From Burkholderiales bacterium (GTDB lineage Bacteria > Pseudomonadota > Gammaproteobacteria > Burkholderiales > Burkholderiaceae_C): a DNA stretch of 34,575 nt. Shown piece after piece: positions 17,473-26,635 of this stretch. A program made the translations under genes and the position numbers. The stretch lies in the NCBI GenBank assembly GCA_013044035.1, contig JABEVE010000066.1:1-34575 (forward strand). The letters run 5' to 3'. Under the pieces are notes generated by a model. It saw only the letters and a list, made by a program, of their open reading frames with translations, did not search any database and had not been told where the DNA came from. Each line of letters opens with the position of its first letter. The stretch's first letter is position 1.

Positions 17473-18426
17473 ATGGCCATCAACTTCGAACTGCACGATC
17501 TGATCGCGTTCCGCGCGGTTGCCGAACTGGGCAATTTCCGCAAGGCCGCGGAAGCGGTCCACATCTCCCAGCCCGCCTTCAGCCGGCGCATCGACAAGCT
17601 CGAACAGGCCCTGGGCATCCGTCTGCTCGAGCGGACCACGCGCGAGGTCAAGCTGACCGCTGTCGGCCGCGAGTTCGCGCGCAGCATCAGTAGCCTGCTC
17701 GACGGGCTCGACGAAACCTTGCTGACCGTACGTGGAGTGGGCATGGCGCGCATGGGCGAGGTGTGCATCGCCTGCGTGCCCTCGACGGTCTATTACTTCC
17801 TGTCCAACGTCATCCAGCGCTACAGGACCCAATACCCCAAGCTGCGGGTGCGGGTGTTCGACGCCAGCGCCAACGAGGTGCTGACGGCCGTGTCCTGTGG
17901 CGAGGCCGATTTCGGGATCAATTTTCTCGGCGGCTCCGAGCCCGAGATCGACTACCGGCCCCTCCTGACGGAGCGCTTCGTCATCGCCTGCCGCCGCGAT
18001 CATCCGCTGGCTGCGCTGCGCAAGGCGACGTGGCGCGACCTGGAGGGCCACGACTTCATCCTCACCGCGAAGTCCTCTGGCAATCGCCTGCTGCTCGACC
18101 AGGCGTTGGTGGGCACCTCGACGCGCCTGCGCCCGATCTACGAGGCGCAGCATGTCACCACCCTGCTCGGCCTCGTCGAAGCCGGGCTCGGTGTGGCCGC
18201 GGTGCCGTCGCTGGCCATGCCGCAGTACGAGCATCCGCTGCTCATGAGCATTCCCCTGGGGGGGCCCCAGGTCAGTCGGCGCATCGGCCTGATCAAGCGC
18301 AAGGGGCGCCAGTTGTCGCCCGAGGCCCAGCAACTCTACGATTTCGTCGCCGCCAGGCGTCCGGCGCCGAAGGCGCGCAAGTCGGCCGCGGCGACACCTT
18401 CGCCCGCCCGGCGCGCGGCGCACTGA
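17473..18426 (+). CDS. LysR-family transcriptional regulator
   Basis: A 317-residue LTTR. The N-terminal winged HTH covers about residues 5-65 (FRAVAELGNFRKAAEAVHIS, then QPAFSRRIDKLEQALGIRLLER), followed by a linker helix and a type 2 periplasmic-binding-like effector domain (about 95-295). The C-terminus is an Ala/Arg/Lys-rich tail. The ATG at 17473 begins the family sequence. The gene converges tail-to-tail on the lyase gene (19 bp between stops) at the far end of the CoA-dependent operon, so it is the likely regulator though not divergent from its promoter. LTTRs of this kind usually respond to the substrate or an intermediate. Confidence 0.92.
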   Translation: MAINFELHDLIAFRAVAELGNFRKAAEAVHISQPAFSRRIDKLEQALGIRLLERTTREVKLTAVGREFARSISSLLDGLDETLLTVRGVGMARMGEVCIACVPSTVYYFLSNVIQRYRTQYPKLRVRVFDASANEVLTAVSCGEADFGINFLGGSEPEIDYRPLLTERFVIACRRDHPLAALRKATWRDLEGHDFILTAKSSGNRLLLDQALVGTSTRLRPIYEAQHVTTLLGLVEAGLGVAAVPSLAMPQYEHPLLMSIPLGGPQVSRRIGLIKRKGRQLSPEAQQLYDFVAARRPAPKARKSAAATPSPARRAAH

Positions 18427-18445: not shown

Positions 18446-19792
18446 TCAGCGAAGCGTCGCGAGCACCCGGTCCACCATCACCGCGGACTGGCCCAGGTAG
18501 TTCGCGGGGTCGAGCATGCGCTCGAGCCCGGCGCGATCGACATGCGCGGAAATCTCGGGATGCGCGCACAGCAGTTCGAGCAGCGGCTTGCCGTCGGCCA
18601 TGGCTTGCCGGCACAAGTCGTAGACCAGATCGTGCGCGTACTCGCGGCCGATGTGCTTGCCCAGGCCCATCATCACGGCCTCGCTCATCACCAGGCCGTC
18701 GGTGAGGTCGAGGTTGCGCCGCATGGCCACGGGATCGACCTGCAAGCCCTCCAGCACCTGCCGGCTTTGGCGCAGGGCCCCCGCCATGAGGCAGAAGGCC
18801 TCGGGCAGCACGATCCATTCGATTTCCCACGGGCCGGTGGAACGTTCGTGATCGGCGACCATGGCGTCCATCAGAGCCGCGGCATGCTGGCGCACCACGC
18901 TGATCGCGGCGTGGATGTAGCAGCTGGCGATGGGATTGCGCTTTTGCGGCATGGTCGACGAGGAGCCGCGCCCATGGTGATAGGGCTCGTAGACCTCGCC
19001 CACCTCGGTCTGCATCATCAGCTTGACGTCCGTGCTGAGCTTGCCGAGTGTTCCGCCCACAAGGCCGAGGAAGGCGCCGACCTCGGCGATGTTGTCGCGA
19101 ATGGTGTGCCAGGCGATCAGCGGCTGCTTGAGTCCGAGTTCCGCGCACAGCCCGGCCTGCGTCTCCAGGGCTCCGCGCTCGAGCGAGGCCAGGGTGCCGG
19201 CAGCGCCGGCGAACTCGCCCACCAGCACCCGCTCCCTGAGCTGCGCCAGGCGTTCGCGGTGGCGCTCGACGGCCGAGAGCAGGCCGGCCATCTTGTAGCC
19301 GAAGGTCACCGGGATCGCCTGCTGCAGGTTGCTGCGCCCAATCATCGGCGTCTCCCGGTACTGGCGGGCCAGCCGGGCCATGGCGGCCGAGATGCCGGCC
19401 AGTTCGCGCTCGACGATCGTCAGGGCCTCGCGAATCTGCAGCACCGTCGCGGTATCTGTAATGTCCTGCGTGGTGGCGCCCCAGTGGCAGTACTCGCCGA
19501 GCTTGGCGCGGCACAAGGCGTTGAGCTGGGAGACCACACCCAGCACCGGATAGCCGATGCGCTCGGTCTGCTCGCGCAGCCGGGCCATGTCGATCTGCTC
19601 GACCCTGCAGTGGCGCGCGATCTCGTCGGCGGCCTGCTGGGGAATCAGCCCCAGGCGCGCCTGCACGACGGCGAGCGCGCGCTCGATGTCCAGGTACTTC
19701 TGAGTGCGGTTCTCGTCGGACCACACCTGGCGCATCTCGTCGCTGCTGAAAATGCCCTGGAAAATGGTGGAATCGATGATGGAAGAAGCCAT
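18446..19792 (-). CDS. Lyase of the fumarase/aspartase superfamily (CMLE/adenylosuccinate-lyase-like)
   Basis: A 448-residue enzyme of the superfamily that adds or eliminates groups across a fumarate-like bond. The C3 signature GSSSTMPQKRNP lies at about 276-287 and the first conserved region HWGATTQDITDT at 103-114. The second region reads RSNLQQAIPVTFG (153-165): the usual catalytic His of RTH is Asn155. 3-Carboxy-cis,cis-muconate cycloisomerase also lacks that His, so the protein is nearer CMLE than true adenylosuccinate lyase. There is no protocatechuate gene nearby, so CMLE itself is unlikely. It is last in the operon, 28 bp after the CitE-like gene, and may release a C4 or C5 unsaturated diacid for the CoA steps. 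No clear ribosome site precedes the ATG. Confidence 0.88.
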   Translation of the reverse strand: MASSIIDSTIFQGIFSSDEMRQVWSDENRTQKYLDIERALAVVQARLGLIPQQAADEIARHCRVEQIDMARLREQTERIGYPVLGVVSQLNALCRAKLGEYCHWGATTQDITDTATVLQIREALTIVERELAGISAAMARLARQYRETPMIGRSNLQQAIPVTFGYKMAGLLSAVERHRERLAQLRERVLVGEFAGAAGTLASLERGALETQAGLCAELGLKQPLIAWHTIRDNIAEVGAFLGLVGGTLGKLSTDVKLMMQTEVGEVYEPYHHGRGSSSTMPQKRNPIASCYIHAAISVVRQHAAALMDAMVADHERSTGPWEIEWIVLPEAFCLMAGALRQSRQVLEGLQVDPVAMRRNLDLTDGLVMSEAVMMGLGKHIGREYAHDLVYDLCRQAMADGKPLLELLCAHPEISAHVDRAGLERMLDPANYLGQSAVMVDRVLATLR

Positions 19793-19820
19793 GGTGCGAA
19801 GTTCGAAAGGAGGAAGGAGA

Positions 19821-20642
19821 TCAAAGCCCGGCTCGGCGCAACAAGCGCAGAGCCTGAAGCACGACGGGACGGTCCACCATGCGTCCATCGACGCTGGCTG
19901 CCCCCGAGCCGGCCGCGTCGGCGGCCACGACCCGGCGCGCCCAGTCCAGCGCCGCGGCATCCGGTGCAAGCGCCGCGTGCACCGGATCGACCTGGCGCGG
20001 ATGGATGCACAACTTGGCGCAGAAGCCCCTGCGCCGGAACCACGACCAATCCGACAACAGGCGGGCCTCGTCGTGAAGCTGCGGCGTCACGCCGGCGACG
20101 GGCGCCGCCAGTCCAGCCAGGCGCGAAGCGAGCGCGATGTGCGCGGCCGCCTCCGCCAGGGGCTGCAGATCGTCGTCGAGGTCCAGGTCGAGGTCGAGGG
20201 CGAAGTCCAGCGTGCCGAAGACCAGCCTGAGCACGCCGGGCGCGGCGGCGATGCCGCGGCAGGCTTCGAGCCCACGCGCGTTTTCCAGCAAGGGCAGCAC
20301 GAGCGCGTCGGGAACCGCCTGGAGGACTTGCGCCACATGCTCGGCATGCTCCGTCTTGGGCAGCATGACCTGTCGAATGCGTGTGTCGCGGAGCAGGCGC
20401 AGGTCGTCGGCAAAGCACGGCGACCCCGCGTCGTTGATGCGCAGCGCGACACGCTCCAGCGCCTGCGCGCCGCGCCGCGCAACCCATTGCTCGACATGGC
20501 CGCGGGCCTCGCCTTTCGCGGATGCATCGACCGCGTCCTCCAGGTCGATCACCACCCTATCGACGGCGCTGGCCGCGGCCTTGTCGAAGCGCTCGGGTCG
20601 GTTGCCCGGCACGAACAGATAGCTGCGTGCCTGTTGGCTCAT
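19821..20642 (-). CDS. CitE-like CoA-ester lyase (HpcH/HpaI family), probable citramalyl-CoA or malyl-CoA type lyase
   Basis: A 273-residue TIM-barrel lyase. Family motifs occur in order: RSYLFVPGNRPERF (6-19), DLEDAV (33-38), RIN (68-70), PKTE (95-98), LPLLENARGL (116-125) and FGTLDFALDL (142-151). Arg68, Glu120 and Asp146 correspond to the substrate and Mg ligands. GFCAKLCIHPRQV is the late conserved loop. An odd run of alternating Leu/Asp follows at 149-158. Members split malyl-CoA, citramalyl-CoA or similar into acetyl-CoA plus a keto acid. Its ATG overlaps the stop of the CoA-transferase gene (ATGA), a sign of coupling. Citramalyl-CoA is the preferred guess from the neighbours. Confidence 0.87.
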   Translation of the reverse strand: MSQQARSYLFVPGNRPERFDKAAASAVDRVVIDLEDAVDASAKGEARGHVEQWVARRGAQALERVALRINDAGSPCFADDLRLLRDTRIRQVMLPKTEHAEHVAQVLQAVPDALVLPLLENARGLEACRGIAAAPGVLRLVFGTLDFALDLDLDLDDDLQPLAEAAAHIALASRLAGLAAPVAGVTPQLHDEARLLSDWSWFRRRGFCAKLCIHPRQVDPVHAALAPDAAALDWARRVVAADAAGSGAASVDGRMVDRPVVLQALRLLRRAGL

Positions 20643-21823
20643 ATCGCATTCGCCGCGCGCAGCGCCTCGATCGCTTCGGCGTTCAACCCGAGTTCACCCA
20701 GGATGGCTTCGGTATGCTCGCCGAGGGCCGGTACCGGATCCATGCGGGGATCGCCGTCGTCCCAGTTCCCCGGAGGCAGCAGTGCCGGCAGAAAGCCCAC
20801 GGGCGAACCGATCTCGCGCCAGCGTCCCCGTGCCCGGAGCTGCGGGTGCTCCCAGACTTCCTTCATGGTGTTCACGCGGGCGTTCGCGATCTGCGCATCC
20901 TGCAGCCGCTGCACCACCTGGGGCACGCTCAGTGTGCGAAAGGCCTCGACGATGATCTCGCGCAAGGCCTCGCGCGAGGCCACGCGCCTGGCGTTGCCGC
21001 TGAAGCGCGAATCCGACGCCAGCGCGGGCTGCAACAGCACCTTGTCGCAGAAACTCGCCCATTCGCGCTCGTTCTGCAGTCCCAGCATCACGCTGGCGCC
21101 GTCCGCGCCGGTGGGGAAGGGGCCGTAGGGATAGATGGTGGCATGCGCGGCTCCGGTACGCGGCGGCGGAGCCGCGCCATCGAAGGCGTAGTACAGCGGG
21201 TAGGACATCCACTCGGTGAGCGATTCCAGCATGGAGATGTCCAGGCGCCGGCCGACACCGCTGCGCGCGCGCTCCAGCAGGGCCGCAAGGATGCTCGAGT
21301 AGGCATACATGCCGGCGGAGATGTCGGCGATCGACGGCCCGGCCTTGCACGGCTCCTCGGGCGTGCCCGTCACGGAGACGAAGCCCGCCTCGCTCTGGAT
21401 CAGCAGGTCGTAGGCCTTGCGGTCGCGGTAGGGGCCGTCCGCGCCGTATCCGGAGATGTCGCAGACGATGATCGAGGGCTTGTGCTGCGCCAGGGTCGCG
21501 TGATCCAGCCCCAGGCGCGCGCTGGCACCGGGGGCCAGGTTCTGCACGACAACGTCGGCCTTTTCGAGTACCAGGCGCTGGAGAATCTGCCGGGCCGCCG
21601 GGTGTTTGACATCCAGCGTCAGGCTCTCCTTGCTGCGGTTGACCCAGACGAAATGCGACGCCAGGCCCCGCACGCGGGCGTCATAGCCACGCGCGAAATC
21701 GCCCACGCCCGGGCGCTCGATCTTGATGACCCGCGCCCCGAGATCGGCGAGATGGCGTGTGGCGAGTGGTGCGGCGATCGCGTGTTCGAGGGTGACGACC
21801 GTGAGTCCTTGCAGAGCTTGCAT
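20639..21823 (-). CDS. CaiB/BaiF (family III) CoA-transferase
   Basis: A 394-residue family III CoA-transferase, which moves CoA between carboxylic acids through an aspartyl anhydride. The fold markers are present: LEHAIAAPLATRHLADLGARVIKIERPG near 12-39 (in pieces), NRSKESLTLD at 62-71, and AYDLLIQSEAGF at 137-148 with Asp139 at the nucleophile position. DISMLESLTEW and the C-terminal GEHTEAILGELG complete the pattern. Members include succinyl-CoA:mesaconate, itaconate and citramalate CoA-transferases. The ATG at 21823 begins the family sequence. It lies 25 bp after the hydratase gene and overlaps the CitE gene. Substrate inferred from context: a C5 dicarboxylate. Confidence 0.9.
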   Translation of the reverse strand: MQALQGLTVVTLEHAIAAPLATRHLADLGARVIKIERPGVGDFARGYDARVRGLASHFVWVNRSKESLTLDVKHPAARQILQRLVLEKADVVVQNLAPGASARLGLDHATLAQHKPSIIVCDISGYGADGPYRDRKAYDLLIQSEAGFVSVTGTPEEPCKAGPSIADISAGMYAYSSILAALLERARSGVGRRLDISMLESLTEWMSYPLYYAFDGAAPPPRTGAAHATIYPYGPFPTGADGASVMLGLQNEREWASFCDKVLLQPALASDSRFSGNARRVASREALREIIVEAFRTLSVPQVVQRLQDAQIANARVNTMKEVWEHPQLRARGRWREIGSPVGFLPALLPPGNWDDGDPRMDPVPALGEHTEAILGELGLNAEAIEALRAANAI

Positions 21824-21848
21824 GAGCAGTGTGTTTGGCGTTGCGGGC

Positions 21849-22694
21849 TCATCGCAGAGTGGCGACGGCATCCATGGTGAGCCAGCCCTCGTGGTCTTCG
21901 CCCCATAACCGTACCGTGCGGGAGTCACCTTGCGGCGCGCCGCAGACGGCGAAGGGATGCAGATCGAAGGTCGGGCGGCGTGCGCGAAAGCTGAAGGTCG
22001 CGACATCGGCATCGGGCAGTTGGCGGTGCAGCAGGTCGAGCAGCAGCGTCGCGATCAGCGGGCCGTGCACGATCAGCCCGGGGTAGCCCTCGACTTCGGT
22101 CGCGTACTTGCGGTCGTAGTGGATGCGATGGCCGTTGAAGGTCAGGGCCGAGTAGCGGAACAGCAGCACGTCATCGGGCACGATCTGCCGCCTCCACGCG
22201 GCCGCTGGAGCGGCCGTCGGCGGCGGGTCCGCGTCGCCCGGCTGCCGCACCTGGCGGTAGACGATGTCGTGAACCTCGACGATGGCGGGATCGGCCGCGC
22301 CGTTGCAGCGAATCTCGTGCCGCACCTTGACGAAGGCCAGGGGTCCGGTGCGCCCCTGCTTGTGGCTCACGTCGACGATCGTGCTGGTGCGGCTCATCGC
22401 GTCGCCCACGCGCAGCGGCGCGCGGAATTCGAATTGGCTTCCTGCCCACATGCGACGCGGCAACGGGATCGGCGGCAGGAAGCCGCCACGCCTGGCGTGG
22501 CCGTCGGCGCCGATGTCCCTCTGGCGCTCGCTCGGCAGGAAATACAACCAGTGCCACAACGGCGGCAGCACCATGCCGGGGCGAACCTCGGCAGGCTCCC
22601 GATCCAGCGTGGCGTTCAGGCCGCGCACGGGTGCGGCGGTCACCGTGTCGTCGCGGGTCTCGCAGCTGCCGATCCAGTCGCTCGCGTCGTTCAT
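21849..22694 (-). CDS. HTD2/mesaconyl-C4-CoA hydratase-like double-hotdog protein
   Basis: A 281-residue protein of the COG3777 type (FAS1-like plus MaoC-like hotdog). The first half holds WHWLYFLPSERQRDIGADGH (48-66, in pieces) and FLPPIPLPRRMWAGSQFEF (72-90). The second half has the hydratase motif ALTFNGHRIHYDRKYA (183-198) and EGYPGLIVHGPLIATLLLDL. Characterised members include mesaconyl-C4-CoA (3-methylfumaryl-CoA) hydratase of the 3-hydroxypropionate bicycle, which makes citramalyl-CoA. The ATG overlaps the stop of the transporter gene (ATGA). With a CoA-transferase and CitE-like lyase next, the set covers acid activation, hydration and cleavage. Confidence 0.85.
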   Translation of the reverse strand: MNDASDWIGSCETRDDTVTAAPVRGLNATLDREPAEVRPGMVLPPLWHWLYFLPSERQRDIGADGHARRGGFLPPIPLPRRMWAGSQFEFRAPLRVGDAMSRTSTIVDVSHKQGRTGPLAFVKVRHEIRCNGAADPAIVEVHDIVYRQVRQPGDADPPPTAAPAAAWRRQIVPDDVLLFRYSALTFNGHRIHYDRKYATEVEGYPGLIVHGPLIATLLLDLLHRQLPDADVATFSFRARRPTFDLHPFAVCGAPQGDSRTVRLWGEDHEGWLTMDAVATLR

Positions 22695-24067
22695 CGCAGG
22701 GCTCCCTGTCGGGCCGAATCGGCCGCATGCAAGGCCTCGAGGGACCGTCCGGTCGTGGACGTGCCGAACAAACCGACCACCGCGGACACCACCAGCCAGC
22801 ACGCGGCGATGTAAATGAACACGCTGCCGTATCCATAGGCCTCGAACAGCGTGCTGACCACGAAGGGGCCCAGCACGTTGGCCAGTCGGCCCACGCCGTA
22901 GGTCAGGCCCATGCCGGTGGAGCGCACATCAGTCGGGAACATCTCCGGCGTATAAGTGTACAGGCCGACCGCCATGGCCTGGATGCTGAGCATCACCAGT
23001 CCTCCGAACACCAGGATCGCCACCGGCTGGAAGGACAGGCCGAAGCCCAGCCCGAACACCGCGATCAGGATGCCGTCGACGGTGATGAACCAGCGGCGCT
23101 CGAAACGCTCCACCAGGTACGACGCGAGAATGGCGCCCAGAGGATTGCACACGGCGATCACGCTGGAAAAGGTCAGCGAGTGCACGACCGAGAAACCGTG
23201 CTTGACCAGCAGGGTTGGAACCCAGGCGACGAAACCATAGAAGCCGAGAGTCTGGAACACCCACACCAGCAACAGGATGAAGGTGCGCTTGCGCTCCGCT
23301 GGCTCGAACAGCCGCGCCAGCGGAACCCTGCGGCCATAGTCGATTGGCTCGTGATGGACATGCGCAGCCGCCGGGATCGCGGGCACCGGGCGCGCGGCAG
23401 CAAGAGCTTCGAGTTCCTCCACGATGGCGAGCGCCTGCGCTTCACGGTTGCGGCGCAGCAGCCAGCGCGGGGACTCCTTCATGCGCGCGATGAACAGCAG
23501 CGCGAACAATCCCAGGCTGCCCCAGACAAATACGGTGCGCCAGCCCCACGACGCCATGGGCACGAAGGCCCTGGCGAACCAGGCCGTGGCCGGGATGCCC
23601 ACGAGACCCACCGTCATGATGCGTCCCATGGTCTTGCCGCGCACGCTCGCGGGGAAGAACTCGCTGACGTAGGTGTTGGCCGTCACCGTCATGCCCGACA
23701 AGCCCACGCCGGTGAGGAACCTGAAGGCCGCCAGCGACAGCACGTTCCACGACACCGCGTTGAGCAGCGAGAACAGCGCGTAGCACAGCACGGTCAGGAT
23801 CAGCGCACGCTTGCGCCCGATGGCGTCGGCCAGCCAGCCGGCCGTGACGGCACCGAGGAACATGCCGCCGAAGCTCGCGGAGGTGATGAAGGCCACCGCA
23901 CTGACCGCGATATGCCAGTCCTTCATGACCCCGGGCGCGGCGAAGGCGAAGGTGTTGAGATCGGCGAACTCGAAGAAGTACGCAAACGCAAGGGCCAGGA
24001 TGGCGATCCTGTGTGGTCGCGTGATCGGCAACCGATCCATCCGCTCACTGATGCTGGAATTTGACAT
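22691..24067 (-). CDS. MFS transporter, probable organic-acid/H+ symporter
   Basis: A 458-residue major-facilitator protein with about 12 transmembrane helices. AYFFEFADLNTFAFAAPGVM near 28-47 and GWLADAIGRKRAL near 82-94 (the loop 2-3 MFS motif) are visible, with a long His-containing central loop (about 235-260). Relatives are the aromatic-acid and metabolite H+ symporters that often lead catabolic operons. AGGAGA lies six bases before the ATG at 24067. First gene of a five-gene minus-strand unit; its stop overlaps the hydratase start, so it probably imports the substrate of the downstream enzymes. Confidence 0.9.
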   Translation of the reverse strand: MSNSSISERMDRLPITRPHRIAILALAFAYFFEFADLNTFAFAAPGVMKDWHIAVSAVAFITSASFGGMFLGAVTAGWLADAIGRKRALILTVLCYALFSLLNAVSWNVLSLAAFRFLTGVGLSGMTVTANTYVSEFFPASVRGKTMGRIMTVGLVGIPATAWFARAFVPMASWGWRTVFVWGSLGLFALLFIARMKESPRWLLRRNREAQALAIVEELEALAAARPVPAIPAAAHVHHEPIDYGRRVPLARLFEPAERKRTFILLLVWVFQTLGFYGFVAWVPTLLVKHGFSVVHSLTFSSVIAVCNPLGAILASYLVERFERRWFITVDGILIAVFGLGFGLSFQPVAILVFGGLVMLSIQAMAVGLYTYTPEMFPTDVRSTGMGLTYGVGRLANVLGPFVVSTLFEAYGYGSVFIYIAACWLVVSAVVGLFGTSTTGRSLEALHAADSARQGALR

Positions 24068-24803: not shown

Positions 24804-25412
24804 TCACATGGTTTTTCCTGGCTTTGCGCAACCCAGGCAGTGCGCCGAGGGATGGTTTTCCCGTTGCACGGCAGCGCTGTTGATGATCCGGGCCGGAAGG
24901 GCGCGGGCGATGCTGTCGAACAGTTCGGGACCGCCGATCGGCGCCGATTTCAGGCCATTCGGCACCATCACATAGGTGCCTTGCTTGTTGAAGAAGCGAA
25001 GCGACACGGTTTCGCCGGCGCCGATAGTCTTGACGCTTTTGAACATGGCTTGCATCTTCGCCAGATCGGGCCCGTAGCCTTTGTACGCGGCCGCCGAGAC
25101 GCTCTTTTTCACCAGCGCGTCGATGGCGTCGCCGAGCTGGGCGCCACCCATCGGCTTGACGGGGATCAACCGCAGCTCCTTCATGCTCGCCGTCATGATG
25201 GCCGAGTTGGAGGTGGTGTTCTCGGGCACATACAGCGCCGCGGCCAGGCTGTGGCCGGCGAGGTTGACCACGCCCGCGCCATTGATCCACAGCGGCACGC
25301 CATCAGCGGGTGCCGACTGCTCGACGGACACGCCGCCGACCTGGATGGCAGCGTCGGCGTTGACGGTGGCAAAGATTGCGGCCAGTGCCGTGAACAACAT
25401 CAGTTTTCTCAT
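24804..25412 (-). CDS. Exported chalcone-isomerase-like protein (second of a tandem pair)
   Basis: A 202-residue protein with a Sec signal (about 1-22, ending ADA-A). A bacterial chalcone-isomerase-like domain covers about 24-180 (NGAGVVNLAGHSLAAALYVPE, in pieces; then KELRLIPVKPMGGAQLGDAI). Real isomerase chemistry is not expected for this periplasmic group, whose role is unknown. The C-terminus departs from the usual FxxLLxIWLGxxP ending: it reads LPARIINSAAVQ and then a tail with HCLGC. GAGGAG before the ATG at 25412 is a strong ribosome site. It follows its paralogue by 185 bp. Confidence 0.83.
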   Translation of the reverse strand: MRKLMLFTALAAIFATVNADAAIQVGGVSVEQSAPADGVPLWINGAGVVNLAGHSLAAALYVPENTTSNSAIMTASMKELRLIPVKPMGGAQLGDAIDALVKKSVSAAAYKGYGPDLAKMQAMFKSVKTIGAGETVSLRFFNKQGTYVMVPNGLKSAPIGGPELFDSIARALPARIINSAAVQRENHPSAHCLGCAKPGKTM

Positions 25413-25597: not shown

Positions 25598-26212
25598 TCA
25601 TTGGCTCACGGCAGCGTCGCCGAGCAAGGCGCTTTTCAAGCGCGTCTCAGCGGGATTCTTGCCAAGCCAGATCTTCAGCAGCGCCTTGAAAAAATCGGGA
25701 TCGGTGTAGGGCGCACCGGCAGGCACGCCGTCGATGTCGATCACCGTTCCGTGTCCTGGAACGAACCGCAGCGTGACGACTTCGCCGGTCTTGAGGTCGC
25801 GCTTTTGCGCGAAGAGGCCGCCCAGTCGGGCCAGGCTCGGAATCAGCCCGCCGAATTCCTCCGCCGAGACGTTGTTCTGGATGCCTTCGGTGAGCTTCTT
25901 GCCCAGTTCCGAGCCGGTGACGTCGCGCAACATCACCAGGCGCATCTCCTTCGGCCCCGGCATATCGAGCGCCGTCTGGGCGTTGCCGGTTTTCTGCGGC
26001 AGGTAGAGCGCGGCGACATACACCTTGAAAAACAGGAAATAGCGTGTCCCCACTCCGTTGAGAGGAAGCGTTTTTCCGCCCAGTTGTTGGGTTTCGTCCA
26101 CCGGCACGCCATGAATGTCCAGGGCATGGGCGGCCTGAAGGGTGAGGATTTGCAGGGCGGCAGCACAGACTGCGGCTGCGAAAAGACGCGGGGCAAGGCG
26201 GCGGGTGGTCAT
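25598..26212 (-). CDS. Exported chalcone-isomerase-like protein (first of a tandem pair)
   Basis: A 204-residue protein with a Sec signal (about 1-31, ending AAHA-L). The chalcone-isomerase-like domain is complete: GVGTRYFLFFKVYVAALYLP (53-72), then PKEMRLVMLRDVTGSELGK and the C-terminal FFKALLKIWLGKNPAETRLK. The family occurs widely in proteobacteria; no enzymatic activity is established for it. AGGAGA lies five bases before the ATG at 26212. It shares fold and order of motifs with the next gene but clearly diverged, so the pair is an old duplication. Confidence 0.86.
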   Translation of the reverse strand: MTTRRLAPRLFAAAVCAAALQILTLQAAHALDIHGVPVDETQQLGGKTLPLNGVGTRYFLFFKVYVAALYLPQKTGNAQTALDMPGPKEMRLVMLRDVTGSELGKKLTEGIQNNVSAEEFGGLIPSLARLGGLFAQKRDLKTGEVVTLRFVPGHGTVIDIDGVPAGAPYTDPDFFKALLKIWLGKNPAETRLKSALLGDAAVSQ

Positions 26213-26635
26213 GGAGTCTCCTGAAGTCTCGGGATAAAAAAGCACGATCGTTCAGTTTCCGACAATTCAGCCGGTCTGGCAATCCGTGCATCACCCCAAT
26301 GCGGTGCCAAGGTCGATGCAGCCGACGCTCCCGGCAACGAGCGCCATGCAAGCTCGACAGGCCGCAGCGCGCGCGGCAGCGACCTGCGGGTTTGCTACAG
26401 TCAAGTTCATCGCGCCGAGGGGCCGATCGAGGCCCGCACACCTTCATGTTCATCCATCGCAAGCATGTTTCCGGTTCCGCAGACCGGGGAGCCTGGCCCT
26501 GGCGGCCCGACTCCCGACTTGCTGACGCTGCTTGAGCGCCGCGCGCGCTGCCAGCGGCCCCACTTCGCGGCTGGCCACGGCCGGCCGCAGCAGATGAACC
26601 TGGCGGCCACCACCGGCCGCGCCTGAGAAGACGCC
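26213..26635. other. Intergenic region between the chalcone-isomerase-like pair and trpE
   Basis: 423 bp. An extended -10 (TGCTACAGT, 26393-26401) could start a leader of about 230 nt for trpE. The leader holds a 29-codon frame (26446-26535) with Trp-Pro-Trp and several GC-rich hairpins. No family-level gene is seen. Confidence 0.4.
26446..26535 (+). CDS. Possible leader peptide before trpE (29 aa)
   Basis: Starts at ATG 26446 and contains WPW at residues 17-19, 100 bp before trpE. GC-rich, mutually exclusive hairpins follow (about 26570-26625). There is no ribosome site and no run of U, so a Trp attenuator is only a possibility. Confidence 0.2.
   Translation: MFIHRKHVSGSADRGAWPWRPDSRLADAA

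Follow-up and report, generated by a model that had tools for sequence, protein, structure and literature searches.

Gene organization of the locus

The locus described here is a five-gene operon in the genome of a Burkholderiales bacterium (GenBank assembly GCA_013044035.1, contig JABEVE010000066.1, positions 1 to 34,575), and the whole 34,575-nucleotide stretch that was analyzed is referred to as the window. The operon occupies positions 18446-24067 on the minus strand, and both this range and the gene order had been given correctly in a preliminary description made from the sequence without database searches. It begins with a gene for a major facilitator superfamily (MFS) transporter resembling aromatic acid/H+ symporters (22691-24067; Pfam MFS_1/Sugar_tr; TIGR00895 at 233 bits, under the cut-off of 418.6), followed by genes for a 281-residue homolog of itaconyl-coenzyme A (CoA) and mesaconyl-C4-CoA hydratases (21849-22694; Pfam FAS1_DH and a weak MaoC match), a family III (CaiB/BaiF) CoA-transferase (20639-21823; Pfam CoA_transf_3, 343 bits), a 273-residue CitE-like homolog of (S)-citramalyl-CoA lyases (19821-20642; Pfam HpcH_HpaI) and a 448-residue homolog of the trans-aconitate decarboxylase Tad1, which belongs to the aspartase/fumarase superfamily (18446-19792; Pfam Lyase_1 and ADSL_C). 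ATGA overlaps join the MFS gene to the hydratase gene and the CoA-transferase gene to the CitE-like gene; 25 bp separate the hydratase and CoA-transferase genes and 28 bp the CitE-like and lyase genes. A LysR-type regulator, absent from the preliminary description, is encoded on the plus strand (17479-18426), convergent (tail to tail) with the lyase gene, and is probably the regulator of the operon.

Assignment of the lyase

When all solved structures were searched, the five top matches of the window lyase were Tad1 chains (536-544 bits), and the next were 3c8t, a 'fumarate lyase' (449 bits), and 1re5, a 3-carboxy-cis,cis-muconate cycloisomerase (CMLE; 369 bits). The alignment with Ustilago maydis Tad1 is gap-free, and 248 of the 435 aligned residues are identical. 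Identity to Tad1 is 56-61% for the lyases of this type of cluster, 45-51% for members of the next lyase group and about 42% or less for pcaB-like proteins. In a maximum-likelihood tree of 58 rows, a single clade with a support of 100/100 unites 22 cluster lyases with Tad1 and with one Komagataeibacter protein that is encoded on a plasmid. The pcaB product from the pca operon of a Skermanella plasmid, which shares 46% identity with the window lyase, falls outside this clade. Tad1 and the Komagataeibacter protein join at 93/81; they are among several long branches flagged by the tree program, and because several branches are long, the branching order within the clade is unsure. By BLAST, the Komagataeibacter protein is 53% identical to Tad1, which is lower than the values for the cluster lyases.

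At the residue level, 36 alignment columns show one and the same residue in Tad1 and all 22 cluster lyases, a residue never seen there in eight pcaB-like proteins, one of which (L153) was observed in a pca operon while the other seven were assigned by the tree. A signature of six residues, S154, N155, K257, S277, Y292 and E323, was chosen after this list had been viewed, and the window lyase carries all six in common with Tad1. Relatives were collected by scanning one genome per species, and of the 307 obtained the best 80 (at least 75% identity, best segment) were examined: the full signature is found in 75 of the 80 cluster loci, and the remaining five have Gln at the last position. The same positions read mostly T-H-M-A-L-H in the next lyase group and mostly T-W-x-G-x-H/Q in pcaB-like proteins, where the Thr-Trp and Gly of PcaB stand in place of the Ser-Asn and Ser of Tad1 and the window lyase. 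Below 60% identity, a single one of 57 distinct fetched lyases has the full signature, namely the Komagataeibacter protein, itself a member of the Tad1 clade. At position 155, all nine members of the next group and 13 other lyases that group apart in the tree have His, which is presumably a catalytic residue of the superfamily. Window S277 is the counterpart of Tad1 Ser320, a position occupied by Ala in the deposited chain 9h4h, and Gly80 and Arg317 match two positions altered in chain 9h4g, both of which are conserved more widely and are not specific to Tad1. The residue changes in these deposited chains appear to probe the active site.

The top NCBIfam score of the lyase, 506 bits, is to the CMLE model PRK09053, and the protein is similar to PcaB in superfamily and length. 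A CMLE role in a pathway for aromatic acids would suit the MFS transporter, which is of the aromatic-acid type, and also a plasmid record (H4) in which a 79%-identical relative is labeled pcaB. However, the score is under the PRK09053 cut-off of 595 bits and two further PcaB cut-offs are missed (355.2 versus 355.75 bits and 228 versus 371 bits), whereas the pcaB of the true pca operon clears the first two with 706 and 456 bits. The tree sets the lyase in a different clade, and while the neighbors of PcaB are pca genes, the window lyase is adjoined by conserved CoA-ester genes. No pca genes were found among the window neighbors scanned, and the window's genome, about 95% complete, gave no model match for the beta subunit of protocatechuate dioxygenase (PcaH). 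Given the cut-offs, the tree, the residues, the neighbors and the lack of a PcaH match, a CMLE/pca pathway was rejected, and we regard a role of the lyase in it as extremely improbable. The wording 'CMLE/adenylosuccinate-lyase-like' in the preliminary description holds for the superfamily and no further. Based on its clade, identity and signature residues, the window lyase is best explained as a predicted bacterial trans-aconitate decarboxylase. No report of such a bacterial enzyme was found in the literature searched (titles, starts of abstracts and passages, with subscription papers mostly outside); papers that name trans-aconitate decarboxylase deal, by title, with fungi, engineered hosts and itaconate derivatives, and one is a horse study.

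The CoA-ester enzymes

At E <= 0.001, the hydratase matches two solved structures, of which the itaconyl-CoA hydratase 8khg ranks first (232 bits, 49.6% identity over 246 columns) and the MaoC_dehydrat_N protein 8huc second (230 bits); within the genome it is the sole match at E <= 1e-5. Among solved structures, the CitE-like protein best matches 8khl (206 bits; 48.4% identical residues in 275 columns), which is named 'probable acyl-CoA lyase beta chain'. We take 8khg and 8khl to be itaconate enzymes of Pseudomonas aeruginosa, and 8khl to be a citramalyl-CoA lyase. The top NCBIfam model of the CitE-like protein is RipC_Ccl, whose equivalog cut-off of 375 bits is missed with a score of 140.8 bits; 8khl itself scores 157.7 bits, and the corresponding lyases of two plasmid clusters with an acyl-CoA dehydrogenase score 150 and 154 bits. 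As all of these are far below the cut-off, the model seems to be limited to a single subtype. These best matches agree with the C5-acid families to which the preliminary description had assigned the hydratase and the CitE-like lyase.

The CoA-transferase stays under every listed equivalog cut-off, as do those of the two plasmid clusters with an acyl-CoA dehydrogenase, to which it is 67-69% identical (60% to that of a third plasmid cluster). Among solved structures, it comes nearest to formyl-CoA and succinate-hydroxymethylglutarate CoA-transferases; because these are not itaconate-specific, the substrate is deduced from the gene neighbors, and the enzyme probably activates itaconate with succinyl-CoA as the donor. 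In the hydratase tree, 21 cluster rows lie on one side of a branch (98) and five other hydratases on the opposite side. The nearest of these five is from a cluster on a Comamonadaceae plasmid, where genes for an acyl-CoA dehydrogenase and an MmgE/PrpD protein accompany it in the arrangement of the methylsuccinate/itaconate cluster, and another (L210) is set among cytochrome P450 genes. The CitE-like proteins split likewise (98) and the CoA-transferases weakly (72).

Conservation of the cluster and its transporters

Neighboring genes were counted in the 61 of the 80 loci whose sequence extends 6 kb or more beyond the lyase on its upstream side. The hydratase gene is present in 57 of them, the CoA-transferase gene in 53 and the CitE-like gene in 42, and 41 show the full same-strand order hydratase, CoA-transferase, CitE-like protein and lyase. 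With the hydratase in 57/61 and the four-gene order in 41/61 loci, the gene set is not due to chance, and the lyase is kept with the other genes, an association that the preliminary description had proposed to check. A plain itaconate cluster without a funneling enzyme fails to account for this conserved lyase and was rejected. The control set came from the order sample, where 35 of the 44 places with a more distant lyase were fetched (seven of the 35 stretches being shorter than 12 kb). Hydratase, CitE-like and PrpF genes were each found in 0/35 of these loci, and four CoA-transferases of 32-38% identity were present. A LysR protein at least 45% identical to that of the window is encoded in 43/61 loci.

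The lyase is uncommon: at 70% identity or more it occurs in 6 of 250 order-sample genomes, counting the window's own, and in the phylum sample in 1 of 398 genomes, again the window's own, where the other 14 matches at E <= 1e-130 are 48-54% identical. The cluster is also plasmid-borne in Bradyrhizobium, Variovorax and Cupriavidus oxalaticus, and further carriers include the culturable soil bacteria Azospirillum brasilense and Noviherbaspirillum. The C. oxalaticus version comprises the hydratase, CoA-transferase, lyase and PrpF genes, and no CitE-like gene lies in its 17-kb stretch.

Within about 10 kb of the lyase, a TctC receptor is encoded in 33/61 loci, an SDF symporter in 12/61, a TRAP transporter in 6/61 and an MFS transporter of the window type in 4/61 (TctC, SDF and TRAP called at 60% identity or more to the queries); at 80% identity or more, the MFS gene is found in 6 of the 80 loci. 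One of the four kinds is present in 49/61 loci and none of them in 12/61. This bears on what the chemistry is for. Passages of PMC4720413 state that trans-aconitate inhibits aconitase and fumarase and that itaconate inhibits isocitrate lyase, so the same reactions might serve mainly to remove such inhibitors made by neighboring fungi or plants, with growth as a secondary benefit. However, a transporter in 49/61 loci, with aconitate as its presumed cargo, suggests uptake for growth, and we consider removal as the main purpose very unlikely.

Association with PrpF-family genes

A PrpF-family gene (at least 45% identity to the queries) accompanies the cluster in 47/61 related loci; its presence near the lyase was confirmed with Pfam in four loci and by tblastn in the others. 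According to passages of PMC4720413, Adi1 of U. maydis is a PrpF-family protein that converts cis-aconitate to trans-aconitate, and Adi1 and Tad1 jointly convert cis-aconitate to itaconate. Hence, an aconitate substrate gains independent support from the finding that homologs of the Adi1 family and of Tad1 adjoin itaconate-type genes. The bacterial PrpF proteins are likened to Adi1 by family, whose members act on other substrates too; for two of them the nearest solved relatives are YbhH and then oxalomesaconate isomerase, well above propionate PrpF. One relative's PrpF is named '4-oxalomesaconate tautomerase', and a gallate pathway was rejected as it leaves the CoA-ester genes unexplained.

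Among the window's close relatives (L004-L009 and L038), six of seven loci have the MFS gene (one of the seven being truncated), and no PrpF match was found there. As the window's genome shows no PrpF protein either, trans-aconitate itself is the likely substrate here.

The PrpF gene has a further feature of its own. In 33 of 33 adjacent pairs, the PrpF and TctC receptor domains form one stop-free frame, for example L016:4977-7088 on the plus strand. In L016 and L039, whose proteins were read over their whole length, the joint contains a hydrophobic stretch resembling a signal peptide, which would fit a topology with the isomerase as if tethered to the membrane and the tricarboxylate-binding domain outside.

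Proposed pathway

We hypothesize, with high confidence for an assignment made by homology and gene context, that the operon serves to catabolize trans-aconitate, with free itaconate as an intermediate. Uptake would be the task of the MFS protein, a candidate trans-aconitate importer, and the Tad1-type lyase would decarboxylate the substrate to itaconate and CO2, as judged from its clade, identity and signature residues. By analogy with their homologs, the CoA-transferase would then form itaconyl-CoA from itaconate and succinyl-CoA, the MaoC-type hydratase would convert itaconyl-CoA to (S)-citramalyl-CoA, and the CitE-like lyase would cleave the latter to pyruvate and acetyl-CoA. In relatives with a PrpF-family protein in the cluster, cis-aconitate could also feed in, since this is the family of the fungal aconitate isomerase Adi1.

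The activation of a C5 diacid, its hydration to citramalyl-CoA and the cleavage to pyruvate and acetyl-CoA, as outlined in the preliminary description, are supported, and so is its suggestion that the fifth enzyme frees the C5 diacid from a larger precursor. Of the acids it had considered (mesaconate, itaconate or a related one), itaconate is favored over mesaconate, since the lyase belongs with Tad1. For the same reason the N-/O-substituted methylaspartate put forward as the precursor finds no support; the most probable precursor is the C6 tricarboxylate trans-aconitate, from which the enzyme would release CO2 by breaking a C-C bond and not a C-N or C-O bond.

The aspartase/fumarase superfamily includes C-N and C-O lyases. 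The window lyase could thus act on another precursor of the same C5 acid, such as an N-/O-substituted aspartate or succinate, or on citramalate to give mesaconate, with the rest of the pathway unchanged. In passages of PMC12290011, both itaconyl-CoA isomerase and mesaconyl-C4-CoA hydratase activities are described for this type of hydratase, which can therefore also hydrate mesaconyl-C4-CoA. However, the lyase falls in the Tad1 clade and has its signature, with N155 at a position that is His in the next groups, and a PrpF-family partner recurs as in the fungal aconitate pathway, so that we consider a different precursor unlikely.

Several points weigh against the trans-aconitate pathway. At 56-61% identity to Tad1, the substrate of the lyase can still differ, and Tad1 position 315, changed from Ile to Phe in chain 9h4e, is variable, with His in the window lyase and Ala or His in the cluster. 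No match ties the CoA-transferase or the MFS protein to the proposed substrates. The window's genome gave no PF04303 match, in a search that did not extend to aconitate isomerases of other families. The full four-gene order is lacking in 20/61 loci and the CitE-like gene is missing beside the lyase in 19/61; the 20 incomplete loci comprise 11 that lack only the CitE-like gene, five with the hydratase alone, three with no partner and one that lacks the hydratase. Finally, in five more clade members from the order sample (L154-L158, 70-74% identity), the hydratase gene is present in four and the stretches, of which those of L155 and L156 are short, contain neither a CoA-transferase nor a CitE-like gene; L158 has none of the three.

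Relation to known systems

The closest parallel for the first step is the itaconate biosynthesis pathway of U. maydis as described in passages of PMC4720413, in which Adi1 acts together with Tad1. The decarboxylases are of the same clade, and many bacterial clusters add a PrpF-family gene; in contrast to the bacterial operon, which has homologs of itaconate-degrading genes, the fungus produces itaconate for export. With the methylsuccinate/itaconate cluster covered in passages of PMC12290011, the operon has its core in common, namely the genes for the CoA-transferase, the hydratase and the CitE-like lyase. To these, that cluster adds genes that serve methylsuccinate and encode an acyl-CoA dehydrogenase and an isomerase of the MmgE/PrpD type. 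In the operon described here, the Tad1-type lyase, and in relatives also PrpF, takes the place of the methylsuccinate genes, and a methylsuccinate pathway was rejected as the five genes include no acyl-CoA dehydrogenase or MmgE/PrpD gene. The C. oxalaticus version is much like a second Cupriavidus necator locus that is left unexplained in those passages.

With the bacterial aconitate isomerase route (TarA/TarB, AI; passages of PMC11495376 and PMC13188880), the proposed pathway shares the substrate trans-aconitate, and the Bacillus velezensis version of that route also has an MFS importer and a dedicated regulator. However, the route isomerizes trans-aconitate to cis-aconitate, which then enters the tricarboxylic acid cycle. 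The string 'itacon' occurs 0 times in the main texts of PMC11495376 and PMC13188880.

The operon would join known kinds of enzymes into a pathway for which no description was found in the literature searched. A function is thereby proposed for a cluster type that specialists had noticed and left open, as passages of PMC12290011 indicate, and for proteins labeled pcaB or 'adenylosuccinate lyase family' in databases. Trans-aconitate is common in grasses such as maize. It is the most abundant organic acid of this plant according to a passage of PMC5375134. If the assignment is correct, the operon would represent a second bacterial route for trans-aconitate, as the accounts of bacterial assimilation in passages of PMC11495376 and PMC13188880 name aconitate isomerase only. 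Itaconate would then be a regular intermediate inside bacteria of soils and plants, and bacterial enzymes would be gained for itaconate production. It is also conceivable, though we offer this tentatively and think it somewhat less probable than its converse, that the smut-fungus itaconate pathway (Adi1 and Tad1) was acquired from a bacterial aconitate-degrading operon that contributed both genes, one for a PrpF-type isomerase and one for a Tad1-type decarboxylase, and of which the fungus kept the first half for making itaconate. This idea comes from the nesting of Tad1, the one fungal sequence, in an otherwise bacterial clade beside the Komagataeibacter enzyme (93/81, long branches) and from the joint occurrence of PrpF and lyase genes in 47/61 bacterial loci.

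Variant loci and neighboring genes

Reduced variants occur at L017:7862-11353 and L039:6831-11347 (both plus strand), which consist of the PrpF-TctC frame and a Tad1-like lyase only, with a porin gene between the two in L039; no hydratase, CoA-transferase or CitE-like gene is present in either stretch. The gene for the Komagataeibacter lyase (L148:6001-7422, plus strand) is a lone Tad1-signature gene on a conjugative plasmid of Komagataeibacter oboediens. Transposase genes are nearby, its 13-kb stretch contains no match to the other genes of the operon, and the protein is the sister of fungal Tad1 in the tree, with long branches. Members of the separate lyase group with the signature THMALH and about 50% identity (L150:5980-10277 and L151:5980-8763, plus strand) adjoin genes for a GntR regulator and a dicarboxylate symporter, and in L150 also a class II fumarase. 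Upstream of the operon in the window, two adjacent genes on the minus strand encode Chalcone_3 (chalcone-isomerase-like) proteins (24804-25400 and 25598-26245). A gene of the tannase/feruloyl esterase family (L147:15188-16921, minus strand) adjoins the Variovorax plasmid cluster, a hint that esters from plants may be a source.

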